From: Chitinophaga pinensis
GTDB lineage: Bacteria; Bacteroidota; Bacteroidia; UBA7662
Direction: 5' to 3'
NCBI GenBank assembly: GCA_945874665.1
Contig: CAMCHJ010000001.1
Span: forward strand, 1-64,000
Length of the DNA: 64,000 nt
In this document: one piece after another, positions 4,498-45,076 of the stretch
How the letters are laid out: the number at the start of each line of letters is the position of its first letter
Position numbering within the stretch: position 1 is the first letter of the stretch
Notes under the pieces: model-generated
Seen by the model: the letters and a program-made list of their open reading frames with translations, nothing else
What the model was told of the DNA's origin: nothing
The model's database searches: none
Made by a program: the position numbers and the translations under genes

Positions 4498-4511
4498 GTA
4501 ACTATGGTTAC
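4498..4511. promoter_or_regulatory. Palindromic operator GTAAC-TATG-GTTAC upstream of TauE/SafE
   Basis: Perfect inverted repeat; centre about 36.5 nt upstream of the end of a -7-like TATTTCG. Confidence 0.7.
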
Positions 4512-4557
4512 GCACTGCCAAGCAAAAAACCCAGTATTTCGCCTTAAATTCAACACC

Positions 4558-5352
4558 ATGATCATAGCTGGCTACTTTGCTGCCGCCCTTATTGGGCTTT
4601 CACTCGGTCTCATTGGCGGAGGAGGCTCCATCCTCACAGTACCCGTGCTGGTATATTTATTTGGCATAGATGCGGTAACAGCCACGGCCTATTCGCTTTT
4701 TGTGGTAGGTGCCACCAGCTTGGTAGGCGCTTTCCCTAAATACAAAGAGGGCTTGGTAGACCTCAAAACAGCAGTCATTTTTGGTGCACCATCCATTTTA
4801 GCTGTTTACTTCACCCGCGCTTATCTCGTTCCATTTATACCCGATCAGGTACTTACAGTGGGAGACTTTGAACTCACCAAGCGACTGTTGCTTATGGGTT
4901 TATTTGCCTTGTTGATGGTTTTTGCCTCCATCAGCATGATTCGCAACAAAAAACCAGTGGTACAAGCCGCGGGCGGAGAACAGGGTTTTAAATACGGTTT
5001 GATTTTACTGGAAGGCGCTGTGGTTGGCGTGCTCACCGGCTTGGTGGGCGCTGGCGGCGGCTTCCTCATCATCCCTGCGCTGGTGCTATTTACCGGCTTG
5101 CCCATGAAAAAAGCGGTGGGTACTTCCCTTCTGATCATCGCCGCTAAGTCGCTCATCGGCTTCACCGGCGATTTGGGCAGCCTGCAACCCGACTGGCAAT
5201 TGCTCCTGATTGTTACCGGCATTGCCATCATCGGCATCATTGCTGGCAACCGCCTCGCCCGCCAAATCGATGGCAACAAGCTCAAAGTAGGCTTCGGCTG
5301 GTTTGTACTGGTGATGGGTATTTACATACTCATCAAAGAAAGTATGTTGTAG
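4558..5352 (+). CDS. Sulfite exporter TauE/SafE family protein
   Basis: Two repeats of G-[L/V]-GGGGS/GAGGGFL type in a polytopic membrane protein; the ORF start at 4504 falls inside the palindrome, so start chosen at MIIAGYF. Confidence 0.88.
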
Positions 5353-5385
5353 GTTTGTTCCTTTAGATGGATAGCAGGCTAACGA

Positions 5386-8300
5386 TCACAGCTCCTGCAA
5401 CCGCATACGTGCGGCCTCTGCTGACCTAATATCCGAAAATTCGATCATCACCGTGGCTTTCACTTGTTTGAGCACGGCCCGCTTGGGGTGCTGCTGCACG
5501 TACTCAAGGATAAGGCCAAAGGTTTCACTCTGGTAAAAACGCTCGTTGTTGCCGGCCACAAAGTAGCATTTCATCTGCCCTTTCTTCAACATCACCTTTT
5601 CCATGCCTAGGCGCTTGGCCTCCCAACGCAGCTGGATGAGGGTAAATAGGGTTTCGGCTTCGTATGGAATGGGACCAAAACGGTCAACCAACTCGGTGCG
5701 GAAACGCTCCAAACCTTCGGGCGTTTCGGTATTGTCGAGTTGCATGTACAGACTCAAGCGCTCGCTGGTACTGCGCACATAGCTGTCGGGTAGCAAAGCG
5801 GCCAAATCGGTGTCGAGTTGCACGTCGCGCACAAAATCAGGCTGCTCGTCGGCATCGAATAAGCCGGAAAACTGACTGTCTTTGAGCTCGCGAATGGCCT
5901 CATCAAGTATTTTCTGATACATATCGAAGCCGATTTCGGTGATAAAACCACTTTGCTCGGCCCCAAGCATATTGCCCGCACCTCGAATGTCGAGGTCGCG
6001 CATGGCAATTTGAAAACCGCTGCCCAAATCGCTGTATTCTTCTAGGGCCTTGAGTCGCTTGCGCGCTTCGTTGGTGAGAATGCTGAGCGGCGGCGTGACG
6101 AGGTAACAAAAGGCTTTGATATTGGATCGCCCCACCCTGCCGCGCATCTGGTGTAAATCGCTCAAGCCAAAATTCTGGGCTTGGTTAATGATGATGGTGT
6201 TGGCATTGGGAATGTCGAGCCCCGATTCGATGATGTTGGTGGCTACCAGCACGTCATAACGCCCGTCGATGAAATCGAGGAGGATGTCTTCGAGCTCGTC
6301 GCCTTCCATCTGGCCGTGACCTACGCAAATGCTCACGCGCGGACACAGCTTGCGAATCATGGTGGCCACGTCCTGGATGTTGCCCACCCGGTTGTGTACA
6401 AAAAATACCTGTCCGCCACGGTCTACCTCAAAATTGATGGCATCTTGAATTTTTTCTTCATCCAACACCATCAACTCGGTATGAACGGGCTGACGGTTGG
6501 GCGGTGGCGTACTAATTACACTCAAATCGCGCGCGCCCATCAACGAAAATTGCAAGGTGCGGGGAATAGGCGTTGCTGTGAGCGTAAGCGTATCTACATT
6601 TACCCGTAGCTGACGCAACTTTTCTTTAACGCCAACGCCAAATTTCTGCTCTTCATCTATTACCAAAAGCCCAATATCTTTAAACTTCACCTGCTTGCCT
6701 ACAATTTTGTGGGTGCCAATGAGGATGTCGATTTTACCTTGTTCGAGCCGCTCGAGCACGTCTTTTTGCTCCTTGGCCGACCGAAAACGGTTGAGGTAAT
6801 CGACCGTTACAGGGAATTCAGCCAAGCGTTTGCTGAAAGTTTTGTAGTGCTGCAAAGCCAAAATGGTCGTCGGCACCAGCACTGCCACTTGTTTGCCGTC
6901 GGTAGCCGCTTTAAAGGCAGCTCTAATGGCGATCTCGGTCTTGCCAAAGCCCACATCCCCGCACACCAGCCGGTCCATGGGATAGCTTTTCTGCATATCG
7001 GCCTTGGTGGCCTCGGTGGCTTTATACTGGTCGGGCGTGTCTTCGTACATAAAGCTGGCCTCGAGCTCGTTCTGGAGGTAGCTGTCGGGCGTAAAAGCAA
7101 ATCCCGCCATGGCCTTGCGCTTGGCATACAGCGCAATGAGGTCTTTGGCAATGTCTTTAACCTGACTTTTGGTTTTGCTTTTGAGCTTCTCCCAAACATC
7201 GCTACCGAGTTTGTTGATGCGCGGTGGTATGCCTTCTTTGCCGCTGTATTTGGCTATTTTATGGAGCGAATTGATGCCCACGTACAGCAAATCGCCATCG
7301 CGGTAGCTGATGCGCACGGCCTCTTGCTGCTGCCCGTTGACGTCGAGTTTCTCCATGCCGTCAAAAACCCCCACACCGTGGTCGATGTGCACCACGTGGT
7401 CGCCAGGGCGCAGGTCGCGGATTTCTTTGAGTGTAATGGCCGACCCTTTGCCTTTGTATTCACGCAGCCTGTACTTGTGGTAGCGCTCAAAAATTTGGTG
7501 ATCGGTGTACACGCTGAGCTGCAGCTGCCGGTCGATGAAGCCTTCGTGCAGACTGGTATAAATGGGGAAAAAGAGCAATCCCGCCTTTAAATCCTCAAAA
7601 ATGTGATACAGTCGCTCGATTTGTTTAGGGGTTTCGCTAAACAGCAGGTTACGGTAGCCTTGTTTTTCCTTGGCCTGCATGCCGGCAATGAGCATGTCGA
7701 AGTTCTTGCGCACCGAAGGCTGGGGTGCGGCTTCCCAAGCAATGTGCTCCACCTTGCCGGACAGGGCATCGGTGCCCCAGCTTACGAGGCGTTTGTCGAG
7801 CAACTGCGCACGAAAACTGTCGCTGGTTTCGAAGGCCTCGCCCGGGGTGAGCTCCTCGAGTCCGTCCGCCGCTTTCCAATGCTCCACGGCTTTTTCGTAG
7901 CTGTTGTTGATGCGGTCGGCCACCAATTGTACATCGCGCACCCACACCACAATGTCGGCAGGCACAAAATCGAGCATGCTCTGCCGGCTTTCTTTGAGGA
8001 GATGGGTTTGTACGTTGGGGATAAGACTGAGGTGGTGGATGGTTTTTACGCTGAGCTGGCTCTCGGGGTCGAAGGTGCGGATGCTTTCTACCTCATCGCC
8101 AAACAGCTCAATGCGGTACGGGAGGTCGTGGGCAAAGCTAAACACATCGATGATGCCGCCGCGGATGCTGAATTGGCCGGGCTCATACACAAAATCTTCG
8201 CGCTCAAAGCCGTATTCGACCAGCATCTCGGTTAAAAAATCGAGCTTGAGCACGTCTTTTACCCGTATGTCGATGGTGTTTTTGGTGATGGTGAATTTGT

Positions 8301-8757
8301 TGACCACCTTTTCGGCCAAGGCTTCGGGGTAGGTAACAATGAGCTCGCCTCTGCTTTTGGCGTGGTTGAGCTGGTTGAGCACCTCGGCCCGCTGCAGCAC
8401 ATTGCCGCTGTCGAGTCCCTCTGGATCGTAATATTTGCGGTAGCTGGCCGGAAAAAAGAGGATGTCTTTGTCGGGCAGCAAATTGCTTAAATCGTTGTAA
8501 AAATAGGCGGCTTCCTCGCGCTCATTGAACACGAGCAGCAAATGCCCGTGGTCTTGCTGCCAGCAAGCAGCCGCTAAAACCGCTGGCAGGGAACCGCTAA
8601 GGCCACTGAGCATCACACGACTGCGCTCGGGCTTGATGCTTTCACGTAGGCGCTGGTGCAGGGGATGGGCAGCGTACAGCTGTAGCAGTTGTCCTACCGA
8701 GGACTCAGGGCGTTCAGCCGGCTGATTGCTGGCGGCCAGGGGCAGCAAGCCACTCAT
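5386..8757 (-). CDS. mfd: Transcription-repair coupling factor
   Basis: 1123 aa; RecG-like helicase motifs ([35 protein letters not shown]), CarD/RID domain ([17 protein letters not shown]). Confidence 0.97.
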
Positions 8758-10004
8758 TATTCGGCGAGCAGACTTTCGATCGTGGCGGTAAATTCGGCTA
8801 CGTAGGCATTGTAGGCAGCGCCGGTGGCTGGACCGTCAAAGCCTGTATGCACTTTGCGCACGCGGCCAGTCTTATCGAGCATAAGCGTAGTTGGGAAGGC
8901 CACCAATTGGGCCATCACTGGTAAAGCGGCCATCACATCTTCGTTTTCAGGCTTACCGGCTAACACCATGGCGTACTCGGCACCAAATCGTTGCTGCAAG
9001 CGGCGCAAGTTATCGAAGGCTTTTTCGGGCATTTTGGTGCGCTCAAAGCCCATGCCGATCACTTCAAAGCCGCGGTCGCGGTTCTTTTTATGGAAATCGG
9101 CCAAGAAAGCCGTTTCGTCTAAACAATTCGGACACCAAGTGCCCAGCACCTGCAGCACCACCACTTTGCCGGCGTAGGCGGGCGATTGCGGACCAATTTT
9201 TTGGCCGTCAGGAGTTGGAAAACTGAAAGTCACCACCTCATCGCGGTTGCGCAAACTGGTTAGACTGTTGGGGTCGGGCAGGGCAAAGCCAGGGTTACGC
9301 ACCGACTTAAAGGTTCGGATGCGGCTGGCACCTGCATACAAATCTCCCGTAATGCTGCTGTCTTCATTCAAATTCGCCTTCACCAAATACGCGCCCGAGC
9401 CGTCGAAGCCGCTCAGGTAAATGCTGTCACCATCCAAAATACCCGTGAGGTAGCGATAATCGCCATAAGGTGTGCGGAAAGTGCCACTGATTTCGTTGCC
9501 GCGCTGACTAAATACGCCCAAGGCAGGGGTGGTATCGCCGTTGGGCTTGTAAAAAGTGGTTTGCCACTCGCCCGAAATATCGTCGGGCAGGCGGGTTACT
9601 TGGGCAGCAAATTTGTACTTGCCTCCGCGGGTGGCAGCAAAGGCCAGCACGCTTTCTTCGTCGTATTTTACGCGGATGAGGCGCCCTGTGAGGCTATCTC
9701 CCAAAGAAGTAATGCCCGCAATGAGGGTGCTTTCGAATACGGGGAAGCGGGCAATCAAACTATCGCCAATCACTTCCACCTCGCTGGTTTCAATAAGCTG
9801 GTCGCCATCTTGCAACACCAAGCTAAAAGTGCTGTCGGTGAGGCGGGTGAGACTAAATAAAAACGGCAGTTCACCGCCTTCAGTTGTTAGGGCACCACGC
9901 CAGTCGCCTTCTTGCAGGCGGTATTTTCCTTCGATGTTGATGCCCCATTTGCAAGCATTTAACACAAAAAGGCCCAAAAGCAGGCCGAGCAATTTTACTT
10001 TCAT
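8757..10004 (-). CDS. TlpA-like thioredoxin-fold lipoprotein
   Basis: Lipobox (LNACKWG), C-terminal thioredoxin motif WCPNC; overlaps mfd start by TAATG. Confidence 0.85.
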   Translation of the reverse strand: MKVKLLGLLLGLFVLNACKWGINIEGKYRLQEGDWRGALTTEGGELPFLFSLTRLTDSTFSLVLQDGDQLIETSEVEVIGDSLIARFPVFESTLIAGITSLGDSLTGRLIRVKYDEESVLAFAATRGGKYKFAAQVTRLPDDISGEWQTTFYKPNGDTTPALGVFSQRGNEISGTFRTPYGDYRYLTGILDGDSIYLSGFDGSGAYLVKANLNEDSSITGDLYAGASRIRTFKSVRNPGFALPDPNSLTSLRNRDEVVTFSFPTPDGQKIGPQSPAYAGKVVVLQVLGTWCPNCLDETAFLADFHKKNRDRGFEVIGMGFERTKMPEKAFDNLRRLQQRFGAEYAMVLAGKPENEDVMAALPVMAQLVAFPTTLMLDKTGRVRKVHTGFDGPATGAAYNAYVAEFTATIESLLAE

Positions 10005-10072
10005 CTTACAAAGTTAATGAAGCTTTTGGAAAGGCATCTCGTTTGGAACAAATCGGGGTTAAAATGGTTCGC

Positions 10073-10144
10073 CTGCAACGCCAGTCGCTGAGCTTTCTGC
10101 AACGCCGGTCGCTGAGCTTTCCACAACACCGGTCGCTGAGCTCC
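10073..10144. repeat. Three tandem 24-bp imperfect repeats (ctgcaacgccggtcgctgagcttt)
   Basis: Units 10073-10096, 10097-10120 and 10121-10144; the last is followed by gtcgaagcg. Confidence 0.85.
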
Positions 10145-10179
10145 GTCGAAGCGCAGGTGTTTCCATGCTTTCATTTGGC

Positions 10180-10187
10180 TATCTTTG
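10180..10187 (+). promoter_or_regulatory. Bacteroidota -7 box TATCTTTG before thiL
   Basis: Matches TAnnTTTG, 5 nt before ATG at 10192. Confidence 0.6.
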
Positions 10188-10191
10188 CGGC

Positions 10192-11241
10192 ATGACCGAC
10201 AATTTGTTCAGCGACAACCTCAAATTAACGCCCATAAGCGAGCTGGGCGAACAAGGCCTCATCGCCCTCCTCACCCAAAACATCCGCTTTCACCAGCAAA
10301 GCACCCTCCTCGGCGCTGGCGACGATGCCGCCGTGGTGGCCCTGCCCGCTGGCGAACAATTGGTGGTAAGCACCGATAGTTTGGTTGAAGGCGTGCACTT
10401 CGACATCAGCTATACGCCACTCAAACACCTCGGATACAAAGCAGTAGTGGTAGCCATCAGCGATATCCTAGCTATGAACGCCACCCCACGCCAATTGGTG
10501 GTGGCACTCGCCATCTCCGCCAAATACACAGTTGAAGCCATTGAGGAGCTGTACCGCGGCATTTTGGCGGCTTGCGAACAATATGAAGTGGACTTGGTGG
10601 GTGGCGATGTAACGGCTTCGTCGGCCGGACTCATGATCAACCTCACCGCCCTGGGTAGTGCCCCAGCCCCCAAGCTGGTAAAACGCAGCGGCGCCCAAGT
10701 CGGCGATTTGGTGTGCGTAAGCGGCGACCTCGGCGGTGCCTTCATGGGCCTCAATTTGTTGGAAAGAGAAAAGCGGATTTTCAGAGAAAGCCCCGAAATT
10801 CAGCCCGACTTTGGCGACAACGACTACCTCTTGCAGCGCCAACTGCGGCCAGAAGCGCGCAAAGACCTGCTTGATATTTTCACCAACCTCGACCTCCAGC
10901 CTACCGCCATGCTCGATGTGAGCGACGGTCTGGGCAAAGACCTCGAGCGCCTGTGCGCAGCTTCAGGCGTGGGGGCCAAATTGTACGAAGACAAACTCCC
11001 GCTCGACCCCAAAACCCTGGCACTCGCTCTGGAGTTTAGCATCGACCCAACCTTAAGTGTGCTTAGTGGAGGCGAAGATTTTGAACTGCTGTTTACCCTG
11101 CCGCAGTCGGCCTTCGACAAAATCAAAAACCATCCCGATATCTCCATCGTTGGCCACATTACCGACGCCTCAGAAGGCCTCTACCTCATCTCCAAAGCCG
11201 GTGCCGCCATAGAGCTGAAGGACAGGATGTATGTGCAGTAA
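10192..11241 (+). CDS. thiL: Thiamine-phosphate kinase
   Basis: ELGEQGLIALL, GAGDDAAVV, VSTDSLVEGVHFD, GGEDFELLFT motifs. Confidence 0.95.
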   Translation: MTDNLFSDNLKLTPISELGEQGLIALLTQNIRFHQQSTLLGAGDDAAVVALPAGEQLVVSTDSLVEGVHFDISYTPLKHLGYKAVVVAISDILAMNATPRQLVVALAISAKYTVEAIEELYRGILAACEQYEVDLVGGDVTASSAGLMINLTALGSAPAPKLVKRSGAQVGDLVCVSGDLGGAFMGLNLLEREKRIFRESPEIQPDFGDNDYLLQRQLRPEARKDLLDIFTNLDLQPTAMLDVSDGLGKDLERLCAASGVGAKLYEDKLPLDPKTLALALEFSIDPTLSVLSGGEDFELLFTLPQSAFDKIKNHPDISIVGHITDASEGLYLISKAGAAIELKDRMYVQ

Positions 11242-11254
11242 GCGCCAGTAAGAC

Positions 11255-12106
11255 TTAAGTCGACTGAATAGGAAATACCAGTACCGGCACCTCTACTTTG
11301 TATACCAAATCGTCGATCACATCAGAGCCAAACAGGGTGTCAAGAATGCCGCGGTGCTCGCGCGATAGAATAATGAGGCCTGCATTTATGTCTTTGATGG
11401 CCGTTTCGATGCCGTTATCAATGTCGGAATTGTAAAACTGCTCAAAACGAATGTCTTTGTAAGCCACTTTTTGGCGCGTCAAGGTTTCAAAACCAGCCGC
11501 GCGCAACTGCTCTTCAAAGCCTTTCTTTTTGCTGATGTGCACGATGCTCAGGGTGCTCTTTAAGTCGCTCGCCAAGGCACATACCTTGCCTAATATGCTC
11601 AAATCGCCTTCGCGGTAATCGGTACCAAACAACATACTGCCAAACTGAATGCTAGGGTGCTTGGAGGTGGTGGCTAAAACAGGACTATTGGCCAAATCGA
11701 TAACCCCGCTGGTGGTATTGTCGAACACCAAACGGCGCAAACCCGTAGTAATGCGGTTGCCCATGCAAATGAGGTCGTAGCCCCCAGCACTGGCCTCTTG
11801 CACAATGCCATGCACCGGATTACCCACTACCATTTTCTCTTTGATGTCGATTTTTAAGCGCGCCAACAGGCTTTTGACTTTCTTCACTGCTTCCTTCAAA
11901 GCAGGTTTGGCTGATTTTTCGAGTTCCTGCTTCAGCTTGGCCTTGCGTAACTCGGTGCTGTAAGGCAACTCTATCACGTGCAAAATAGTGATTGAGCATC
12001 GGGTTACGCGTGCCAATTCACACGCAATTTCTAAGGCGCGGTCGGCTTTGTCACTGAAATCGGTAGGAACCAATATCTTTTTGAGGGATGCGTTTTTTTT
12101 GGCCAT
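11255..12106 (-). CDS. Universal stress protein
   Basis: UspA-like N-terminus KKILVPTDFSDKADRALEIA; tandem Usp domains. Confidence 0.88.
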   Translation of the reverse strand: MAKKNASLKKILVPTDFSDKADRALEIACELARVTRCSITILHVIELPYSTELRKAKLKQELEKSAKPALKEAVKKVKSLLARLKIDIKEKMVVGNPVHGIVQEASAGGYDLICMGNRITTGLRRLVFDNTTSGVIDLANSPVLATTSKHPSIQFGSMLFGTDYREGDLSILGKVCALASDLKSTLSIVHISKKKGFEEQLRAAGFETLTRQKVAYKDIRFEQFYNSDIDNGIETAIKDINAGLIILSREHRGILDTLFGSDVIDDLVYKVEVPVLVFPIQST

Positions 12107-12107
12107 T

Positions 12108-12941
12108 TTAATGGGTTATGTAGGCGAATAAATTTCCTGATTTCAAAATATGATCGGCAGTACTGCCGCTGAAAAAACGGGTGAGGCCGCTGCCACCATA
12201 TGCCCCCAAAACCACCAGCATATTGCCTTTTTGGGAGGAGAAATACGGGATTTCATCTTTCGGCTTGCCAATCAAGTCTACCACTTTTAAATCGTTAAAC
12301 CGCAGCTGAAGTATTTCTAACAAAGCATCCGGTAGCGGTTCCTTTTGCGCTTCTTTTTCGAAAACGCGCACGAAATAAGTAGGCCAAGTCTTGCATTTTG
12401 GCTTAAAATCGTGGTAAAATGCCTCGATGGCTTTCAAACTGCTGTCAGAGCCATCGTAGCAGAGCACTACGCCGTCTGGATTGTAACCTTGTTCAGGCAA
12501 CAGCACCATCGGACAAAATGCCTTGCTCAGCATGTCTTTTACCAGTTGCTGGTCACCATCCATGCTCAGGGTATTGTAAGCATGGTAACCCATCAGCATG
12601 AGATCGGCATACCGACTCTCTTCTACCAATTCAGCCACAGGATCGCCTTTTTGGAAGTGTACGCGAAATCGAATGCCCGCCGATTTACACTGCTCCACAA
12701 AATAATTAATGTTTTGGACGGTCTTTTTTTCGCTTTCGTTTAAGCTTTCTTTGATGATTTCGAAAGTATGCTCGTAATACACGGGCTCACCGCCCAGTAC
12801 GGTATAATAATCTACCAAGGTAAGGTCTTGCACAAATACGCCAGTTAATACGGCATTGTGCTCGCGCGCCATGCGGAAGGCCTGTTCTAATTGGTCCCCA
12901 GCATTAATGCTTTGGTCAACAACTAATAAAATCTTATCCAT
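12108..12941 (-). CDS. Universal stress protein
   Basis: Usp fold: KILLVVDQSINAGDQLEQA, C-terminal GAYGGSGLTRFFSGSTADHIL. Confidence 0.82.
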   Translation of the reverse strand: MDKILLVVDQSINAGDQLEQAFRMAREHNAVLTGVFVQDLTLVDYYTVLGGEPVYYEHTFEIIKESLNESEKKTVQNINYFVEQCKSAGIRFRVHFQKGDPVAELVEESRYADLMLMGYHAYNTLSMDGDQQLVKDMLSKAFCPMVLLPEQGYNPDGVVLCYDGSDSSLKAIEAFYHDFKPKCKTWPTYFVRVFEKEAQKEPLPDALLEILQLRFNDLKVVDLIGKPKDEIPYFSSQKGNMLVVLGAYGGSGLTRFFSGSTADHILKSGNLFAYITH

Positions 12942-13095
12942 GAGGCTTGCTTTAGGTGCCCTATAAAGTTAGGGAATATATTACTCCATTAAAAGCATGC
13001 AGAAAGATATAATATTTCAGTAACAAAAGATTTTAAGCTCATTTATAGTCATTGAGCGCACTGTAGTTGCAACAGTTCGACTCAACAGCCCGTCA

Positions 13096-16920: not shown

Positions 16921-16922
16921 GC

Positions 16923-32158: not shown

Positions 32159-32177
32159 CTTAGTAAAATCCAATCAT

Positions 32178-32588
32178 ATGAACAAAAAACAAACTTGGTT
32201 CCTGTTGCTATTGGCTGTTGGAATCACCTTCGCTTCTTGTAAGAAAGACGATCCTATTGTGCCACCAGCACCTACCAACAAAGAGTTATTATCCAAAATC
32301 TGGAAAATCGACCAAATTTTGCTCGATTCTATGGATGTAACTACCTTTTTTACAGGTTTAAGGTTTAATTTCAGAGCTGACAACCTAGCAATCATAACCA
32401 TGCCTGGCGAAAGTCCAGATACTTCTACTTGGTCGTTCAATGCTGCAGAAACACAAATTATACTCGCGCAAGATGGTGAGCTAGACACCTTGAATATTTT
32501 AGCGCTTACCGCTTTGCAACTGAGATTGCGAGGTTATGACCGCGTTGAAGAAACAGAAACGCTCATCACAATGAGCCCTGCACCTTAA
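32178..32588 (+). CDS. Small lipoprotein, lipocalin-like
   Basis: MNKKQTWFLLLLAVGITFASCKKDDP lipobox; LLSKIWKIDQI..W-F typical of Bacteroidota lipocalin-like lipoproteins. Confidence 0.6.
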   Translation: MNKKQTWFLLLLAVGITFASCKKDDPIVPPAPTNKELLSKIWKIDQILLDSMDVTTFFTGLRFNFRADNLAIITMPGESPDTSTWSFNAAETQIILAQDGELDTLNILALTALQLRLRGYDRVEETETLITMSPAP

Positions 32589-32609
32589 AGGTCTTTAAAG
32601 CCGAAATCG

Positions 32610-32638
32610 AGCCATCCCCCAAAAGGATGGCTTTTTTT
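32610..32638. terminator. Rho-independent terminator
   Basis: agccatcc/ggatggct hairpin followed by T7. Confidence 0.8.
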
Positions 32639-35159: not shown

Positions 35160-35214
35160 TCACGAAGATCATGTTTGACGGCGACTTATGAAATGTTTGG
35201 CGTGTTTTATTCCT

Positions 35215-36837
35215 TCAAGGAAGCAGTAAAACTTTGTGCGTTACAAAATGCTTGTGGTCGAATACCAAGGTTAGCCACAAAAACGGATTGCCTTTATGAG
35301 GCTTTAGGTCGAATTTTATTTCGTTTTCGCCTATTTCCATGTCCTGAAACCGCCCTTTTTCAAGCACCGCTCCCGCCGCATTACTCAACAAATAGTGGAC
35401 ACTCAATAACTCGCTGAGTTCAAAATTAACTGCCACCGCGCTTTTTGTGGGATTGGGGTGTAAAGCAAAGTCGAACGTCTTTTCAGTTGCCTTGCTTGCT
35501 ACCTTTACCCCCGTGCTTTGTGGCTCCCGTACCAATTTTACTGCATACACTTGGGTAGACGCCGAAGTAACGCCGGTATTGTTATTGGTGAATGCGTTTA
35601 AAACGGGACTCACGATGCCTCCTACGATGTGACCCAAAAGCGTGGTGTCGTTTACAAAGGCTTGTAATTTAAACGTTTCGTTGGCGTAATGTGGCACCGA
35701 TAAATTGGGTATGAATTCGGCACTTGCGCCTACCAAAACGGGCATTTGCTCGGGTTGCACAAACTCTGTTAGCTGGCCGTTGGCCTCGCGCGTTACCCGA
35801 CTGATGGTTTTTACAAATGGCACATTGTTGTCTTGCACCAACAGCTCCCCATCATAATAATACTGGGCCAATCCCCCATAAAAAAGACTGTGCATGGTAT
35901 TGCTTGCGCTGTCGTAGAGCGCTGTTTTTGCACTGTGGTAATGGCTCAGCTTCTGCAGAAACTGGGTTTGCGGAAAAATTCCTGTTGCCTTAATATCTAC
36001 AGGATATAAATACGGCAAGTCGATGGTGTGCTGAAAAACGCCCGAGGAAAGGGTATAGCCGGGGGTGCCATCCGGGAAAATTTGCGGCACCAGGTTGTAG
36101 TCGCGGCGGTGCAGGTGAATAGGGTCAGTTTGCACTTGGTAATTGAGCATGGCCAACGTAGTTCCCGGGGCGCTCAGCTCAAATTTGCGGATTTGGTTGG
36201 TGTATTGTTGCACAAAGCCAGGACCATTGCTGGGACCCATGGGGTTGTATCGGCCCACAAATTTATGGCCTCCCACGAGGTAATACATCTCCCCAATTTT
36301 GCCTAGCTGTCCACCAGTTACGGCAAAGGCGCTGTCTTGCAGCTGCTCAAAAGCCCCTAAAATAGGTTGATTAACTAAAACAGCCTGTAGCAAAACGGGC
36401 ACATGGATGCGCAACAAAAACGGATAGGTGGTGTATTGGTTGGCCGTAACCGAAAAGCCATAGCCACCTGTGAGCAGCAAGTATGGACCTTCTTGGTAAA
36501 AATTAAAATTGGTGGCGCTCAGTTGCTCTTGCATGCTGGCTGGCAACGAGCCAAGTGCAACCTGCCAAGTGGTATCGGCCACATGATCAATCACGTATAA
36601 ATGGGCATTGGCTTGGGCCGTGGGGAAGGCGTTAAAAGGTTGCCGCGCGTGAATACCATCTTTTCTGCCCCCAAAAAACAGCCAATAATGGTCCGTTTGC
36701 GCAAAAGCATGCGAGTGCAACCCCGGCAAACCTGTGATTTGGCGCGACTCGAGGGTGATGGTGTAGGGGAAGTTGGTTTGGGCAGTTGCAGCAATTGCCG
36801 CAACACCCAACGTAAATAGAAGAAAAAGCTGTTTCAT
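35215..36837 (-). CDS. T9SS type A sorting domain-containing protein, kelch-like N-terminal region
   Basis: Signal peptide; kelch-like W/F-GGR-DG segments; C-terminal FALHPNPTKSAVAVNFEL...THKVLLLP. Confidence 0.75.
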   Translation of the reverse strand: MKQLFLLFTLGVAAIAATAQTNFPYTITLESRQITGLPGLHSHAFAQTDHYWLFFGGRKDGIHARQPFNAFPTAQANAHLYVIDHVADTTWQVALGSLPASMQEQLSATNFNFYQEGPYLLLTGGYGFSVTANQYTTYPFLLRIHVPVLLQAVLVNQPILGAFEQLQDSAFAVTGGQLGKIGEMYYLVGGHKFVGRYNPMGPSNGPGFVQQYTNQIRKFELSAPGTTLAMLNYQVQTDPIHLHRRDYNLVPQIFPDGTPGYTLSSGVFQHTIDLPYLYPVDIKATGIFPQTQFLQKLSHYHSAKTALYDSASNTMHSLFYGGLAQYYYDGELLVQDNNVPFVKTISRVTREANGQLTEFVQPEQMPVLVGASAEFIPNLSVPHYANETFKLQAFVNDTTLLGHIVGGIVSPVLNAFTNNNTGVTSASTQVYAVKLVREPQSTGVKVASKATEKTFDFALHPNPTKSAVAVNFELSELLSVHYLLSNAAGAVLEKGRFQDMEIGENEIKFDLKPHKGNPFLWLTLVFDHKHFVTHKVLLLP

Positions 36838-36880
36838 GCGCCAATTTTGTTAAAAGTACAGCTTTGTTTTCGCGGCACTG

Positions 36881-36894
36881 GTAACCTGCGTTAC
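36881..36894. promoter_or_regulatory. Palindromic operator GTAAC-CTGC-GTTAC upstream of the T9SS protein
   Basis: Perfect inverted repeat, centre about 35.5 nt from a -7-like TACTTTT. Confidence 0.65.
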
Positions 36895-36973
36895 AGAGCG
36901 CTAACGATTATCTTTTACAACTGCCGTTTAAATCCTCTCGATTTAGGGCAGCGACTTATTGGCCGCTTAACAC

Positions 36974-38701
36974 CTACCTAAACTCGTAATCTACCCCAAA
37001 CACCTGACTTAGCAAGGTTTGTGGGGCATCGAGCACCTTGGCATTGAGCTTTGGTTTTGGCGTAACAGGCGAATTGGCAGCGAGGTACGACAACATGATG
37101 TCGTGCAGGCTGAAGGGGGTATTCTTGGTTTCCATGACATTGCTCATGCGGCAAAGCACATCTTCGGGATCGCCGTCACGCTCGCATGCCGAAATGGTAT
37201 AGGTTTTTTGCAGGTCGAGGGGCTTTTTGCCCACTTTCACACTTTGAACACGACTGCCATCAGCGCCATGCGCGTTAAAAGTAACCGTCATGCCCTCAAA
37301 CTTGATCACCCAACCGCCAAAACGCTTGGCCGCATCCACTGCAAATACATTGTTAAGCTCCTTTTCAAGCCATTCGGCAATTTGCTTGCCAGTAACCTTG
37401 CCTGTACGCACTTGGCTATCAACCGGCAACATATCATAAATAAAACCGCGGGTGATGGGTATGTTGCCTGTATGGTCGGGTGTACTACGGGGTGGACAAA
37501 ACCTGAAGCCATTCGACAGTACAATGTCGACTTCAGGCAATTTCCACGTCAAAGCATCCAAAATAAGCGTATCGATGGTGTTTTCAACCACAAAATAGCG
37601 GTACAAAGGCAGGGTGCTGTAGCCTACCACCTTGTAAATATCTTCAGCAAAGGGTTGCTCATTGGCTTGCACCAAGGCTACAATCCCTGCATCAGCCGGG
37701 TAGGAAGCAACATCTACCTCATCTAAGGCATAAAACTCTTCGATGACCTTGCCATTTTGAACCTTTAACTGCAGCTTTCCTACAAAAGAGCCGAAAGCAC
37801 CCGGCTCAACTACCTTTGAATACTTACCAACAATGGGTTTACGAACCCTTTCATGGGTATCTCCTCCCAAAATAATGTCAACTCCCGCACAATCGGGGTT
37901 GTTTGAAAGGGCAATTTGCTGTGAAAGGCCGAGGTGGGATAACAAAATCACATACGCACAGCCTTCATGCTCGCGCAATACTTCCACATAATGCTTGAGG
38001 TTGTGCTCAGGTTTGGTATATACGATGCCTTTGCTGTAGCTTGGCGACTGCCGCTTGGGGACCAGGTGGTCGGTGTAACTCAAAAAACCAATCTTCACCC
38101 CAGCCACATTCCAGATTTTGTAGGGATGGAAGATCAACTCCCCCCTTTTCCCTTCGCCCAAATCGTGGTACATATTGGCACAAACCTTAGGGGCATTTAA
38201 GCCCCCCATCAGCGTAAGCATATTGCGTTTGTGGTACACCACCTCCCAATTGCCTGGGATGTACAAATCGTAGCCCATGTTGTTGAGGATAGGCAACATG
38301 GCCTTGCCGGTGGTTTTTACCGAAAGTTCGCTACCCTGAAACATATCACCGGTATCGATGATGAAGGTGTTGGCGTGCTTGGCTTTTTCGCGTTGAAAAT
38401 AGGTGGCCAAATGGGCATATCCGCCTGTTTTACGGAAAACCGCCTTGTTATCCTCCCAAAACAGCTCGTCGTGGGGGTGTATTTGACAATGGATATCGGT
38501 CGTTTGCAGGATATTGAGCGTCGTAATTTCGTCGGCAGCAGGCAAAGTGCCATCAGGAGTTGCGTCTTTACTGCCGGCGGTTGCCAACGCAGCTGTTTGC
38601 GTGATTATGGGCAAGCCCAAGCCTAATGCACCTACTTTTTTGAGGAAATTCCTGCGGTCGCTGCCTTGCGACACTTCTTGAGGGCGTTCATTTTCTTTCA
38701 T
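36974..38701 (-). CDS. SoxB-like metallophosphoesterase / 5'-nucleotidase superfamily, Tat-exported
   Basis: Twin-arginine signal DRRNFLKKVGALGLGLP; TTDIHCQ, DTGDMFQGS, GNWE (in place of GNHE), LSNGFRF...ITRGFIYDMLP..NNVF. Confidence 0.8.
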   Translation of the reverse strand: MKENERPQEVSQGSDRRNFLKKVGALGLGLPIITQTAALATAGSKDATPDGTLPAADEITTLNILQTTDIHCQIHPHDELFWEDNKAVFRKTGGYAHLATYFQREKAKHANTFIIDTGDMFQGSELSVKTTGKAMLPILNNMGYDLYIPGNWEVVYHKRNMLTLMGGLNAPKVCANMYHDLGEGKRGELIFHPYKIWNVAGVKIGFLSYTDHLVPKRQSPSYSKGIVYTKPEHNLKHYVEVLREHEGCAYVILLSHLGLSQQIALSNNPDCAGVDIILGGDTHERVRKPIVGKYSKVVEPGAFGSFVGKLQLKVQNGKVIEEFYALDEVDVASYPADAGIVALVQANEQPFAEDIYKVVGYSTLPLYRYFVVENTIDTLILDALTWKLPEVDIVLSNGFRFCPPRSTPDHTGNIPITRGFIYDMLPVDSQVRTGKVTGKQIAEWLEKELNNVFAVDAAKRFGGWVIKFEGMTVTFNAHGADGSRVQSVKVGKKPLDLQKTYTISACERDGDPEDVLCRMSNVMETKNTPFSLHDIMLSYLAANSPVTPKPKLNAKVLDAPQTLLSQVFGVDYEFR

Positions 38702-38802
38702 TCTACAAATTTATGTTTCGGGAAAAACAGCAAAAATTAAAGCCATCCTGCCCAAAGTGTGCTAATGAAATGGCAAACTATCGAAAATAACTATAAAGAC
38801 AA

Positions 38803-38816
38803 GTAACTTAGGTTAC
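38803..38816. promoter_or_regulatory. Palindromic operator GTAAC-TTAG-GTTAC upstream of the SoxB-like gene
   Basis: Perfect inverted repeat, centre about 35.5 nt from a -7-like ATAGTTTG. Confidence 0.7.
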
Positions 38817-38840
38817 AATTGCCCAAAAGCAGCCTTTTTC

Positions 38841-40250
38841 TTAAAAATGGTAGTTCAAAACAAGGTTCCAAAGCGACATGTTTACCCGGTTAATGGTGTA
38901 GCGGTCGGCAAGCGGCGAACCCGTAGCATTGCCTTTGTACACGTATAACAACTGTCCCGTGAGGCCTTCCATCCAGCCGCCAAAAGTATAAAAGGCGTCT
39001 ATATTGACTTGGTAATAACTAGGTAGTCCGTATTTATTGCGCGCAAAGTCGGTAGGATTGGGCATTTGATAGTAGCCCGCACCTGTACTAAACATCCAGC
39101 GCTCTTTAACTGGCTTTTTTACAACCAAGTTGATGGCATTTACATTGGCATAGCCTTCATTGCGCTCGCGGGGCAGGAAGGTAAACATGGGGTCGCGACC
39201 CCATTCGCGGGGCATGAGGTAGCGGTCGGCATCGGCAATGTGCGTATAATTGAGGTTAAACTGCCATTTTGAAGGCAGATCGAGGCCCAAGCGTGCGCCA
39301 TACAACCTTGCTTGGTGATTGGCCTTCAAATAATCGTGCGTTACAGCACTGCTACCCGTTGCGCCCTGCTGCCAAATGGCTTGTGCCGCCGCGCGCCACT
39401 GGTACCCTTGTGCAAATGTCTTTTTGTAATCGGCCTGCAGTAAGAGCGTGTTCATGAGGCGATCGACATACAAATTCGAAAACTTGAGCTCGAGTGCTTT
39501 GATAGGCTGCCATTTCCCCTCCAAAAAAGCAAGGTATTCAGCAGGAATATTGGTTGGGTGGGAAGATGCTACCCCTGAATCGTTTACACCGGCAGGATAA
39601 ACGCCGATGGATTCGCCAATTTTAAACCATTCAACGGTGCTGCGGGGCGAAATACCCACTAGCACGCCACCATCCAACTGCATTTTTTTGGCACCGCGGA
39701 GCTGAAACTGCAAGCCATCGGCCAAAGTTGGACGCATCCGGCCGTCTTGCGGATTGATGAAAGCGGTTTTGATGTGCTGCTTGCCAAGCGTGATTTGCAA
39801 ATCACGCCGACTGTACTTGATATAAAGATCTTCCAGCCTGTCCATATCGCCACGCTCCTCAGGTCGTTTGGTATCGAACAAACCTATTTCATACCTGCTC
39901 ATTTGGCTGGTGAGCACATCGCGCTCATGGAGCTGATTAGACCAGAGGTTATGATTAAAAAACCCGCTTAAACCTATCTGAAAACCACGATAAGGCGCGC
40001 TTTCATAGGCAATCCCCATCCCAAAAGCGTTAGCAAAGTAGTCTGCCAAGCCATCAGCATTGTCTGTAGCCATAAAAAAATAGCGCGCGTGGCCGTATAG
40101 CGTGCCACTTCTGAAAAACTGTTGGAAGTTTTGAGCCTCCGTGGTGTCTTTTTCGCGCTCGTTGTGGTGCTCATAAGGGTGAATGCCCTGCGCCAAAAGC
40201 TCGATGGGCAGTAGGAGCAATCCCAAAAGGACTACACGGAGGTACTTCAT
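38841..40250 (-). CDS. OprD-like outer membrane porin
   Basis: Signal peptide, beta-barrel pattern, YGHARYFFMATDNADGLADYFANAFGMGIAYESAPYRGFQIGLSG, aromatic C-terminal residue. Confidence 0.75.
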   Translation of the reverse strand: MKYLRVVLLGLLLLPIELLAQGIHPYEHHNEREKDTTEAQNFQQFFRSGTLYGHARYFFMATDNADGLADYFANAFGMGIAYESAPYRGFQIGLSGFFNHNLWSNQLHERDVLTSQMSRYEIGLFDTKRPEERGDMDRLEDLYIKYSRRDLQITLGKQHIKTAFINPQDGRMRPTLADGLQFQLRGAKKMQLDGGVLVGISPRSTVEWFKIGESIGVYPAGVNDSGVASSHPTNIPAEYLAFLEGKWQPIKALELKFSNLYVDRLMNTLLLQADYKKTFAQGYQWRAAAQAIWQQGATGSSAVTHDYLKANHQARLYGARLGLDLPSKWQFNLNYTHIADADRYLMPREWGRDPMFTFLPRERNEGYANVNAINLVVKKPVKERWMFSTGAGYYQMPNPTDFARNKYGLPSYYQVNIDAFYTFGGWMEGLTGQLLYVYKGNATGSPLADRYTINRVNMSLWNLVLNYHF

Positions 40251-40252
40251 CT

Positions 40253-40678
40253 CTAAAAACCAGCTTTGATATAACTCCAGCCTTGTTCTTGCTTGATTAC
40301 AATTTCAGCAATGCCCATCTTCACAAAGTCGAGCTGCGGCAGCAGTTCCGATTTATCGATTTTGCGCTCCTTCAGGGTGTTTTCGCAGGCCACAAAACGA
40401 ACGCCTTGCTGCTGAAACTTGGCAATATTGGCAGCTTGGGTAGATTTGGCGGTCATGAGCAGGTTCATGCCTGGACCATGACAAACCACTTCAATGGCCA
40501 CGCTATCGCCCCAGCCTTCGGTTAAGTTGCGCAATTGCACGAACAAACCTTTGTGCGCCAGTGTGTCGCCCGACACCAGCTGCATCACAATGCGATGCGG
40601 TGGTTGAGCTTGCGCATTGGCTGCGCTGCCAAGCCCAAGGCTGAGCAAAAAGGCGAAAACAAATAAGGAATTTTTCAT
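40253..40678 (-). CDS. Periplasmic DsrE family protein
   Basis: Signal peptide; VEVVCHGPGMNLL-type segment and VACENTLKERK typical of DsrE/DsrF-like proteins. Confidence 0.85.
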   Translation of the reverse strand: MKNSLFVFAFLLSLGLGSAANAQAQPPHRIVMQLVSGDTLAHKGLFVQLRNLTEGWGDSVAIEVVCHGPGMNLLMTAKSTQAANIAKFQQQGVRFVACENTLKERKIDKSELLPQLDFVKMGIAEIVIKQEQGWSYIKAGF

Positions 40679-41670
40679 GAGGGTTGCTTTTGTTGGTCGC
40701 GTGCGGCTTTAATTGGCTTAAACGGACCGTATTTGTGTTGTAATTCGGGAAAGGAGTCGCTGTACGGACCAAAAGGATGATCCACAGGCTTGCCACTTAT
40801 ATCAGGCCAATCGGCACGGAGGTCGTACTTAGGTCGTTCCTGGCTGTTTACATAAGCGGCCACATCCCAAGCTTCTTCATCGGTTAACAGCGGCTTTTCG
40901 TGTGTGGCACCGAGCGGCATGCCTTGTTTTACATAAGAAGCAAAACGTGATAAGCGGTACAAGCCGGCGGCGTGGTTGTAGCTATTTGGCCCCCACAAAG
41001 GCGGGAATGCATAACCCCCTTTCCCATTCGTAAGGCCTTGTCCATTCGGCTGGTGGCAACTTTGGCATTTTTCAACATAAACCTTGGCGCCTGCTTGTGG
41101 ATCTGCGGCCCTGTCGAGGAAATCAATCACCTCCAAACCTGCCCCCGCTGGCGTTTCGCCTTTTTGGATGCCACTTCCTACCCAAAGTACATAGGCGGCA
41201 ATGGCTTTCCCCTCGACCGATAAACTATCAGGGGCTTGACCATTCAAACTCCTTTGAAAGCAATCTGCAATTCGCTTGTGCACCGTTTCCTCAGTGCCAG
41301 AGCGGGCTCTAAAGCGCGGATACGTACTGGCCACCAAGGCATAATTATTCGTAAAAGGCCTGGTACCAGCATCTAAATGGCAGTTTTGGCAGTTCAGGCC
41401 ATTGGTTGTGCGCGCTATGCTGCCTTCAGGGCCCAAATAAGCGGCGGTGTTGGCCACCAGGTCCCGTCCGTATCGCAACTGCACAGCCTGCTCGGTTTGC
41501 GCCCAAGTATTGGTGTCGGGAGCTGCCCACACCGCGGTGTGCCCAGTTGCGGCTTCTTCCCCGGTGTTGTTCGTACTAGTCGAGTCCGGTCCACCACACG
41601 ACTGACAAAAAAATGCCAGGGTGAGCATGGCTGCACTAACAACCAAAGCTTGCATAACCTGCTTTTTCAT
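40675..41670 (-). CDS. TsdA-like diheme cytochrome c (thiosulfate dehydrogenase/tetrathionate reductase family), lipoprotein
   Basis: CQNCHLDAGTRPF and CQSCHQPNGQG heme motifs; IADCFQRSLNG (candidate Cys axial ligand); FPPLWGPNSYN; start reassigned to MKKQVMQ. Confidence 0.85.
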   Translation of the reverse strand: MKKQVMQALVVSAAMLTLAFFCQSCGGPDSTSTNNTGEEAATGHTAVWAAPDTNTWAQTEQAVQLRYGRDLVANTAAYLGPEGSIARTTNGLNCQNCHLDAGTRPFTNNYALVASTYPRFRARSGTEETVHKRIADCFQRSLNGQAPDSLSVEGKAIAAYVLWVGSGIQKGETPAGAGLEVIDFLDRAADPQAGAKVYVEKCQSCHQPNGQGLTNGKGGYAFPPLWGPNSYNHAAGLYRLSRFASYVKQGMPLGATHEKPLLTDEEAWDVAAYVNSQERPKYDLRADWPDISGKPVDHPFGPYSDSFPELQHKYGPFKPIKAARDQQKQPS

Positions 41671-41671
41671 C

Positions 41672-42082
41672 TCAATGGGGCAATTTAGGGCGGAGATAGC
41701 TGTACAACCAAGTGCCAAAAAGCGCACTAAGAATGGCGACCCAAATGGCAGGGTACCCGGCGCCAGCAAGGGCGTACAGCGGTCCTGGACAAGCGCCGCT
41801 GAGCGCCCAGCCCATCCCAAAAATTGTTCCACCGATAATGCTGCCTTTGTTAAAGATCTTGTCGGGAATGCTCACAGACTCGCCATTCACGGCTTTGACT
41901 TTAAATTTCTTGATGATCAAAATCGAAATCATACCAACCACGATGGCTGAGCCGATAATGCCATACATGTGAAAGCTCTGAAAACGGAACATTTCTTGAA
42001 TGCGGTACCAAGAAACCGCTTCTGTTTTAGTTAATATCAAGCCAAAAAGACTTCCTATCAATACAAATTTGATGTTTTTCAT
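41672..42082 (-). CDS. YeeE/YedE-type sulfur transport protein (DUF6691-like), short subunit
   Basis: GTIFGMGWALSGACPGPLYALAGAG (SGxCPG motif). Confidence 0.88.
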   Translation of the reverse strand: MKNIKFVLIGSLFGLILTKTEAVSWYRIQEMFRFQSFHMYGIIGSAIVVGMISILIIKKFKVKAVNGESVSIPDKIFNKGSIIGGTIFGMGWALSGACPGPLYALAGAGYPAIWVAILSALFGTWLYSYLRPKLPH

Positions 42083-42085
42083 GTC

Positions 42086-42661
42086 TTAAGGAATTGCGTA
42101 AAAGAAAGGAGCCAGAACATGGGTCATGAGTAACCCACCAATAAAAAAGAAAATCACTGTTACCAGAGAAGGCCACTGCAAGCTGCTGATGCCCATGATG
42201 GCGTGGCCGGAGGTACAGCCCCCAGCATAACGAGCACCAAAGCCAATCATGAAGCCCCCAAGCACCAAGATAACCCAAGCGCGCAGACTGCTAAAGGCCT
42301 CCCAGCCAAAAATAGCATCGGGCATCAGGCCGTCGGAGGGGCTCACATTCATGGCCACAATCGACTCCTTGGCCGCGTCAGTGAGTGCCACAGCTTCTGG
42401 GTTACTGAAAATGCCCCCGCCTAAAACCCCGCCTAAAAATATGCCGAAAGCGAAAAACAGGTTCCAGCTTTCTGCCTTCCAGTTGTATTTGAGGAAAGAA
42501 ATATTGCTTGGGTATACGGCTGCGCAGGTATGTCGCAGGCTCGAAGAAATACCGAGCATTTTATTGCCCACGAGCAACAGCAAAGGCACGGTAAGGCCAA
42601 TCATGGGGCCGCTTACGTACCAGGGCCAGGGCTGACTTATCCAATCTATAAAATCCTGCAT
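42086..42661 (-). CDS. YeeE/YedE family sulfur transport protein, long subunit
   Basis: [30 protein letters not shown] (GGCTSGH motif). Confidence 0.92.
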
Positions 42662-42662
42662 T

Positions 42663-43502
42663 TTAGTTGTCTTTTAATTTGAAGGTAAAAATGGGTTTCT
42701 GCACATGGTTCACCAAGTCGGCCGAAATACAGCCGTTTATAAGCTTGTTCAAACCTGTACGTTGCATGCTACCGATGGCAATGAGGTCGATGTTGTTATT
42801 AGCAGCGAAGCGTACTATGCCTTCCTCTAAGTCCTCGGCCGGGAAAATAGCGTAGGCCACATCCTCCAAGCCATTGGCCTCGGCAAAAGCTGACATTCGC
42901 TCTTGAATTTCTACTTCGCGCTTGCGTTTGCCTGGCTTTTGAATTTGCAGCAAGTACAACTGTGCTTGCAAAGCCGAGCGCAAAGCGAGTAAAAGACTGA
43001 TGTTTGTTGGCAAGATGGCTGTAAAATCAGCGGCCAAAACCATTTTTTCGATGCGCTTGCCGGCCTCGCCTTTTAGCGAAAGGATGGGCATGTCGGCATG
43101 CATGGCTAAATACTCCGCATGCGAGCCATTGAGCAGCTCACGCATGCCAAAGGCGCCGTGGGTACCCATGAGCACCATGTCGGCCTTTATTTTTTGGGCA
43201 TAATGCAGGAGGGTTTCGTTTACATGGCCGTATAGAACCTTGTTTACCACATTGGACTGTACGTTATCGATCCAAGCCATTAGTTTACGCTCTGCTTGTT
43301 CATGCTCGAGCTGCAGCTGGGTGATGTCCATTTCGTCGTCGTCGAACAACTCGCCGTCGGGAGTAAGCAAAACATGGCTTGGCAGGGTAACAATGTGCAC
43401 GAAATGTAATTCGGCTTGTAACTCGCTTTGCAGCTGTTTGCCTAATTCAAAGGCGTGCCTGGCTAGGTCACTGAAATCGACTGGAATGAGTATTTTTTTC
43501 AT
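42663..43502 (-). CDS. Universal stress protein
   Basis: MKKILIPVDFSDLARHAFELGKQ; MGTHGAFGMRELLNGSHAEYL. Confidence 0.9.
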   Translation of the reverse strand: MKKILIPVDFSDLARHAFELGKQLQSELQAELHFVHIVTLPSHVLLTPDGELFDDDEMDITQLQLEHEQAERKLMAWIDNVQSNVVNKVLYGHVNETLLHYAQKIKADMVLMGTHGAFGMRELLNGSHAEYLAMHADMPILSLKGEAGKRIEKMVLAADFTAILPTNISLLLALRSALQAQLYLLQIQKPGKRKREVEIQERMSAFAEANGLEDVAYAIFPAEDLEEGIVRFAANNNIDLIAIGSMQRTGLNKLINGCISADLVNHVQKPIFTFKLKDN

Positions 43503-43583
43503 TACATGCAGGTTTGGGAAATTGAAAAAAGCGCCGCTAACAACCTAAAAAAATGATTGTAGCGACGCTAAAAAAGCTGGTGC

Positions 43584-44999
43584 TTAGAGCATCGTAGTCG
43601 GACAAACGTAGTCGGTAATCTTAAACTTCTCCGAAGCCTTGATCGCACTGAAGCCACCTGCTACATTGATGAGGTTATCAAAACCACGTGCCTTGAGGAT
43701 GGAAGCAAAAATCATAGAACGATAGCCGCCCGCACAGTGTACGAAATAGGTTTTATCCTTATCAATGCTGGCCATGGCATCGTTGATGTTGTCTAAGGGT
43801 GCGTTTTCAGCATTTACGATGTGCTCGCTGTAATACTCACTCTTCTTACGAACGTCGAGGATGTTGATATTTGAATCAGCTACTTCTGCAGCAGCAAACT
43901 CGTCAGCGGTTACGCTTTGAATCTCATCTACTTCCATGCCGGCTGCCTTCCAAGCCTCAAATCCACCTTCTAAATAGCCAATGGCATAATCATACCCCAC
44001 ACGTGCTAAGCGTGTTACCACTTCTTCTTCACGTCCAGCGTCGGCCACGATTAAAATTTGCTGCTTGATGTCTGGAATCAGCGTGCCCACCCAAGGGGCG
44101 AAGCCACCGTCGATGCCGATGCTGATGCTGTTGGGGATGAAGCCAAGGGTAAACACCTCGGGCTTGCGGGTATCGAGGATCAAGGCAGATGTTTCGTTGG
44201 CTGCTGCTTCGAAGGCGGCGGGCGACAAAGCCCGGGTGCCGCGCTCCATTACGTCGTCAATGCTGTCGTAGCCCTGCTTATTCATCATCACATTTAACGG
44301 GAAATAGCTTGGCGGCGGCATCAGGCCTGTAGTTACTTCGGTGATGAAGTCCTCGATCGACATATCGGCTTTCAAAGCATAGTTTACTTCTTTTTGGTGT
44401 CCCAAAGTATCGAAGGTTTCTTTGCTCATGTTTTTGCCACAAGCAGAGCCTGCACCGTGAGCTGGGTAAACGATCACATCGTCGGCTAACGGCATGATTT
44501 TGTTGCGAAGCGAGTGATAGAGGTGACGAGCCAAGTCGGCTTGAGTTAAATCTGATTTTACCGCGAGGTCGGGACGGCCCACATCCCCAATAAACAAGGT
44601 ATCACCGGTAAAAATGGCGATGTCTTTGCCCTGTGGATCGCGCAGCAAATACGTGGTGCTTTCCATGGTATGGCCAGGGGTGTGCAACACAATGATTTTA
44701 AGATCACCAACTGTGAGCACCTCGCCATCAGTGGCAATGTGTGCTTCGAAAGTTGGCTTGGCGTTGGGACCAAATACAATGGCTGCGCCGGTGGCCTTAG
44801 CCAGATCGAGGTGCCCTGATACAAAATCGGCGTGAAAATGCGTTTCGAGTACGTATTTGATTTTTGCGCCGCTCTTAGCTGCACGTTCTTGGTAGGCCGT
44901 TATTTCGCGGAGTGGGTCAATAACGATGGCTTCGCCTTTCGACTCGATGTAATAGGCTCCCTGCGCCAAACAGCCCGTGTAAATTTGTTCAATGATCAT
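43584..44999 (-). CDS. MBL-fold metallohydrolase with two C-terminal rhodanese domains (persulfide dioxygenase-like)
   Basis: THFHADFVSGH, HTPGHTMESTTYLL, GDTLFIGDVGRPDL; rhodanese VHCAGGYRS; start chosen at MIIEQIYTG. Confidence 0.92.
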   Translation of the reverse strand: MIIEQIYTGCLAQGAYYIESKGEAIVIDPLREITAYQERAAKSGAKIKYVLETHFHADFVSGHLDLAKATGAAIVFGPNAKPTFEAHIATDGEVLTVGDLKIIVLHTPGHTMESTTYLLRDPQGKDIAIFTGDTLFIGDVGRPDLAVKSDLTQADLARHLYHSLRNKIMPLADDVIVYPAHGAGSACGKNMSKETFDTLGHQKEVNYALKADMSIEDFITEVTTGLMPPPSYFPLNVMMNKQGYDSIDDVMERGTRALSPAAFEAAANETSALILDTRKPEVFTLGFIPNSISIGIDGGFAPWVGTLIPDIKQQILIVADAGREEEVVTRLARVGYDYAIGYLEGGFEAWKAAGMEVDEIQSVTADEFAAAEVADSNINILDVRKKSEYYSEHIVNAENAPLDNINDAMASIDKDKTYFVHCAGGYRSMIFASILKARGFDNLINVAGGFSAIKASEKFKITDYVCPTTML

Positions 45000-45031
45000 A
45001 TGTTTCGTTTTATTTCTTTCAATCAACAAAA

Positions 45032-45039
45032 CAAATGTA
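45032..45039 (-). promoter_or_regulatory. -7 box TACATTTG for the MBL-rhodanese operon
   Basis: Matches TAnnTTTG 33 nt upstream of ATG 44999. Confidence 0.6.
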
Positions 45040-45062
45040 AGGCACAATAGGATTACTGCTCG

Positions 45063-45076
45063 GTAACCTTGGTTAC
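45063..45076. promoter_or_regulatory. Palindromic operator GTAAC-CTTG-GTTAC upstream of the MBL-rhodanese operon
   Basis: Perfect inverted repeat, centre about 37.5 nt upstream of the end of the -7 box. Confidence 0.75.

Follow-up and report, generated by a model that had tools for sequence, protein, structure and literature searches.

A TGTAAC-N4-GTTAC palindrome as the putative operator of a Crp/Fnr-type activator of sulfur genes in Bacteroidota

Four perfect GTAAC-N4-GTTAC palindromes in the 64,000-nucleotide stretch of Chitinophaga pinensis DNA that was analysed (the window) are very probably operators of a Crp/Fnr-type class II activator of sulfur genes, encoded outside the window on contig C6 of the same genome (G000; 2.29 Mb in 35 contigs, 96% complete), with binding, activation and signal inferred from sequence. 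A dimer of the C6 regulator would bind TGTAAC-N4-GTTACA centred near -41 and, in the class II manner, recruit RNA polymerase to a Bacteroidetes TAnnTTTG promoter, turning on genes for sulfane sulfur and thiosulfate, i.e., TauE/SafE, the MBL-rhodanese/YeeE/cytochrome operon, the SoxB-like and YgaP-like genes and a rhodanese-thioredoxin operon. The C6 regulator would fall in the Val181 branch of a regulator found across Bacteroidota; its Glu181 relatives would, for the most part, read TGTGAC-N4-GTCACA at the same position before the same kinds of genes. The signal is presumed to be reactive sulfur acting on a conserved CxxSxxC cysteine pair of the sensor domain.

The initial annotation had placed four palindromes in the window, all in promoter regions and each preceded by T when read toward the gene, and had put the number expected by chance far below one. 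A pattern search matched all 10 fixed bases at these four places (Table 1) and nowhere else in the window; each site, oriented toward its gene, was TGTAAC-N4-GTTAC, and all four preceded sulfur-related genes. Dinucleotide-preserving shuffles gave an expectation of 0.02 palindromes for the window, none of 100 shuffles reached four and the Poisson P value was about 7e-9. The sites in the window were confirmed as real rather than chance occurrences. Genome-wide, the search found eight palindromes, half of them inside the window (P about 4e-5). Five of the eight lay in promoters, namely the four of the window and one further site (C1:359459), and three lay inside genes, so that the motif was neither abundant nor random with respect to promoters. 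The whole-genome count of the palindrome equalled that of a reversed-pattern control (8 against 16 counted per strand) and thus showed no excess; since the control was not rarer, it is placement and not genome-wide number that carries the case. A site at an adenylate kinase gene (C1:260444) and the three coding-region sites were judged to be chance.

Table 1. Predicted regulator sites, -7 elements and genes (G, genomes; L, loci).
Feature	Coordinates	Strand	Remarks
Regulator site TGTAACTATGGTTACG	4497..4512	+	Upstream of TauE/SafE; perfect sites before orthologue in G001, G002
-7-like element GTATTTCG, weak	4534..4541	+	TauE, offset 37; identical element and offset in G001 orthologue (L078)
TauE/SafE family exporter	4558..5352	+	Pfam PF01925, E 4e-44; likely start ATG 4558
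Secreted protein	35215..36837	-	Without match in Pfam or NCBIfam; C-terminus of T9SS type on visual inspection
-7 element TACTTTTA, good	36851..36858	-	Secreted T9SS gene, offset 37
Regulator site TGTAACGCAGGTTACC	36880..36895	-	Upstream of secreted kelch-like protein; homologues' sites in G018 (L061, perfect), G106 (L226)
SoxB-like metallophosphoesterase/5'-nucleotidase	36974..38701	-	Under SoxB equivalog cut-off
-7-like element TAGTTTGC, weak	38773..38780	-	SoxB-like gene, offset 37
Regulator site TGTAACCTAAGTTACT	38802..38817	-	Upstream of SoxB-like gene; perfect site before G002 orthologue (L062)
Weak OprD-like outer-membrane protein	38841..40250	-	Below Pfam cut-off; last gene of operon
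DsrE-family protein with signal peptide	40253..40678	-	PF02635
c-type cytochrome with SoxA/TsdA-like domain	40675..41832	-	PF21342, PF13442; true start probably downstream
YeeE/YedE sulfur transport protein, second half	41672..42082	-	PF04143
YeeE/YedE sulfur transport protein, first half	42086..42661	-	PF04143
Universal stress protein	42663..43502	-	Domain search
MBL fold with two rhodanese domains (persulfide-handling type)	43584..44999	-	Domain search; first gene of operon
-7 element TACATTTG, strong, exact TAnnTTTG	45032..45039	-	MBL-rhodanese, offset 38
Regulator site TGTAACCAAGGTTACC	45062..45077	-	Upstream of MBL-rhodanese operon; orthologue sites in G001, G002, G018 (perfect), G005 (near-perfect)
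Fifth promoter site	G000:C1:359459 (L005 1450)	-	Before YgaP-like 67-aa transmembrane protein; same arrangement in G001 (L067)

Domain searches fitted the genes that had been proposed behind the four sites, i.e., a TauE/SafE exporter, a T9SS-secreted protein, a SoxB-like protein and an MBL-rhodanese-led operon. The SoxB-like protein scored 223 bits against TIGR04486, for which the cut-off is 550, and is thus SoxB-like only; likewise, the SoxA/TsdA-like cytochrome fell under the SoxA cut-off. The MBL-rhodanese operon comprised seven genes, encoding the MBL-rhodanese protein, the universal stress protein, the two YeeE halves, the cytochrome, the DsrE-family protein and the OprD-like protein. The secreted protein was 44-46% identical to its homologues in G018 and G106, which likewise carried sites, and appears as a conserved, uncharacterized protein associated with sulfur genes.

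Counted from the initial T of each 16-mer, the -7-like boxes of the four window sites began at offsets of 37-38. Of the -7-like elements previously proposed behind every site, those of the MBL-rhodanese and secreted-protein genes stood up well, while those of the SoxB-like and TauE genes were weaker. The proposed class II activator position was borne out by rigid spacing between site and -7 box across the phylum. Thus, of the 72 sites located behind regulator genes, 61 had a TAnnTTTG beginning at offset 37 (shuffle maximum, 6), and in a second set of 29 sites it occurred at offset 37 in 20 and at offset 38 in 2. Given this fixed distance and the position of the Bacteroidetes -7 box (PMC7366714), the centre of the site falls near -41, as expected for the 16-bp palindromic operator of a Crp/Fnr protein with class II spacing.

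Phylogenetic footprinting in related Bacteroidota, which had been suggested as a check, showed that sites recurred before orthologues of the TauE, MBL-rhodanese and SoxB-like genes and of the gene for the secreted protein (Table 1), and also before the YgaP-like orthologue of G001; the motif was therefore conserved upstream of orthologues. When orthologous promoters were compared, the sequence of the 21-nt spacer had diverged whereas the distance between site and -7 box was kept. The whole-genome motif search, also suggested at the outset, added the YgaP-like gene as the fifth promoter target and was accompanied by the finding of a single Crp/Fnr gene. Perfect sites were also noted in G001, a genome of the same genus, before genes for a di-haem peroxidase (CCP_MauG; L058) and a multicopper oxidase (L074), which hints at a wider regulon.

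Searches of 247 genomes of the class with a pattern that combined a site with a spaced -7 box found 73 places for GTAAC versus 10 for the control (7-fold) and 29 places for GTGAC versus 1 (29-fold). Genes behind the examined places mostly encoded TauE, rhodanese, MBL-rhodanese, YgaP-like (transmembrane), thioredoxin or thioredoxin reductase, peroxiredoxin and DsbD-like proteins. The possibility that some of the palindromes arose by chance or are unrelated sequences mimicking a regulon could appeal to the ordinary genome-wide count against the reversed pattern, but it is vanishingly unlikely in view of these enrichments and the low expectation for the window, and for the window sites it was refuted by the retention of sites in orthologous promoters with diverged spacers. 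YgaP-like genes were the commonest targets of E-type sites. Two E-type sites preceded an ArsR-family gene (L224 in G072 and L240 in G140), where one sulfur regulator possibly controls another.

A Crp/Fnr-family activator encoded elsewhere than in the window had been proposed from the symmetry and position of the sites. In agreement with this, searches with PF13545 and PF00027 found exactly one Crp/Fnr protein in the genome, encoded outside the window at G000:C6:83862-84500 beside sulfurtransferase genes; a weak second match to PF13545 was a DtxR-like protein instead. Both the cNMP-binding-like sensor (PF00027) and the HTH_Crp domain (PF13545) scored above cut-off. Four nucleotides past the stop codon of this gene lay a degenerate site, TGTAACTTAGGTGACC, followed by rhodanese, thioredoxin and rhodanese genes. 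The AlphaFold2 model of the protein had the CRP fold (mean pLDDT 86, pTM 0.62) and matched PDB structures with an E value of 6e-17. In an alignment with E. coli CRP, the Val of its recognition helix, GSSRVVISR, aligned with CRP Glu181, and Thr/Ser aligned with Arg82/Ser83, the phosphate-binding pair of cAMP-CRP; since Arg82 contacts cAMP, its replacement by Thr makes cAMP an unlikely ligand. An N-terminal cysteine cluster for 4Fe-4S as in FNR was absent, the first 74 residues being free of cysteine, and the sole cysteines noted in this check were the CxxSxxC pair at 75-81. The sequence and its genomic setting support a Crp/Fnr-type class II activator of sulfur genes, with predicted binding and activation. 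Such an activator resembles E. coli CRP at class II promoters in its fold, in the TGTGA half-site read by its Glu181 relatives and in a site at about -41, and differs from it in its targets, its -7 box and the Thr in place of Arg82.

The initial annotation had called the regulon undescribed, and this stood only in part. As a sequence, the palindrome has already been published, being the HcpR2 consensus, GTAACnnnnGTTAC, found upstream of hcp (Rodionov 2005, PMC1274295), while neither a sulfur regulon of this kind nor a Crp/Fnr sulfur regulator of Bacteroidota was found in a literature search of limited coverage; the regulon, the regulator and the promoter rule thus appear to be new and the motif is not. 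HcpR2 (Bacteroides, Clostridium and Thermotogales) shares with the C6 regulator the Crp/Fnr family, this 14-bp consensus and a non-acidic residue 181, and in a different genome a GTAAC composite site preceded one hcp gene. The window sites might, on these grounds, be HcpR2 operators of a nitrosative-stress regulon that here includes sulfur genes. This is highly unlikely, however, because HcpR2 has Pro181 and controls hcp, whereas the C6 regulator has Val at this position, has sulfur genes as its predicted targets and comes from a genome in which hcp (PF03063, Prismane) gave no match; in addition, the protein resembled other Crp/Fnr structures far more than HcpR of P. gingivalis, and its gene adjoins rhodanese genes. 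Identity with HcpR2 was rejected on the missing hcp and the missing Pro181.

The 107 orthologues of the C6 regulator gathered from relatives and named Bacteroidota carried either Glu (E-type, 80) or Val (V-type, 27) at position 181. A site lay directly behind the regulator gene in 72 of the 107 loci (57/80 E-type and 15/27 V-type) and upstream of it in 9, so that autoregulation through an upstream motif was set aside and the adjacent site would serve the downstream operon. The genes next after the regulator were mainly TauE (30/44), then MBL-rhodanese (about 23/41), the same two kinds of genes that carried sites in the window. The regulon is wider than the window and extends beyond one species. 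In an initial count, exact palindromes were not enriched around six named V-type regulators, since the sites next to these genes are degenerate. At six Flavobacterium loci (L088, L091, L093, L095, L096 and L098), an asymmetric TGTGAT-N4-GTTAC(A/T) occupied the same place downstream. All 80 E-type regulators kept the CxxSxxC pair, as did 17/27 of the V-type, and it was missing in the other 10 V-type proteins.

An association between residue 181 and the operator was evident at base 4 of the left half-site. At the regulator loci this base was A in 15/15 V-type and G in 52/57 E-type cases, and in the second set, found through sites and not through regulators, it was A in 15/16 V-type and G in 9/13 E-type cases. 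Thus, V-type regulators were associated with TGTAAC and most E-type regulators with TGTGAC/T. Similarly, genomes with only GTGAC sites were E-type in 15 of 17 typed cases and those with only GTAAC sites were V-type in 17 of 23 (Fisher P 1e-4, two mixed genomes being left out). Exceptions were V-type regulators with GTGAC sites in G038, G142 and G068 and E-type regulators with GTAAC sites in G134, G202, G088, G212, G112 and G258. Countable independent switches of residue 181 numbered four (about 3.2 agreeing and 0.1 disagreeing), a small sample for which the sign test was not significant. Ebright and co-workers (1984) reportedly found that mutants of CRP with Val, Leu or Lys in place of Glu181 changed their preference from TGTGA to TGTAA; the regulators described here show the same pairing of a residue 181 change with TGTGA to TGTAA, here natural and spread over lineages. 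The coupling of residue 181 with the half-site base is in line with these classical mutants and with PMC1274295. Four E-type loci with GTAAC-like or mixed sites (L312, L315, L280 and L298) carried Thr or Tyr rather than the usual Ser or Ala at position 179 (CRP numbering); this residue may likewise influence operator specificity, a pattern spotted after the fact.

Known sulfur regulators such as CstR, SqrR and BigR are mostly repressors of other families, and none reviewed in PMC9774590 is a Crp/Fnr protein. CstR, SqrR/BigR and FisR control similar genes (persulfide dioxygenase-like, rhodanese and TauE) and sense through cysteine pairs, but they belong to the CsoR, ArsR and Fis families and the first two are repressors. 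By analogy, and given that in two genomes an E-type site precedes an ArsR gene, the palindromes could bind a repressor of the ArsR/BigR, Rrf2 or MarR type to which the Crp/Fnr gene is unrelated. This is extremely unlikely, as a repressor would not need the rigid placement near -41 before the -7 box, the site adjoins the Crp/Fnr gene across the phylum and base 4 tracks the recognition residue of the Crp/Fnr protein.

For the Crp/Fnr activator acting at these same sites, the signal could instead be the general state of the cell with respect to redox, oxygen or NO. Genes for thioredoxin reductase, AhpC-type peroxiredoxin and DsbD-like proteins are among the targets seen in other genomes, and the same-genus peroxidase and multicopper oxidase sites point the same way; a signal of this kind is nevertheless rather unlikely, given that the commonest targets were TauE, rhodanese, MBL-rhodanese, YeeE and YgaP-like genes. 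It is possible, and is put forward tentatively, that Bacteroidota have a phylum-wide, thiol-sensing Crp/Fnr activator as their master regulator of sulfane sulfur, and that its operator specificity has switched in nature several times by way of residue 181, the operators following suit. It would then fill a role for which other phyla use ArsR, CsoR and Fis-type proteins, and the Glu/Val181 contrast would offer an example from nature in which a recognition residue and its operators have changed in step. Bacteroidota would gain a candidate dedicated sulfur regulator, comprising a protein, an operator and a strict rule for promoter layout (site, 21 nt, TAnnTTTG) by which regulons could be read from the genome alone, and unannotated genes for secreted kelch-like, YgaP-like and DUF983 proteins would be tied to sulfur handling. 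At the TauE gene of the window, the longest open reading frame opens inside the site (ATG 4504) and the downstream ATG is the likelier start; automatic annotation may give a wrong start here, since this frame begins within the operator.
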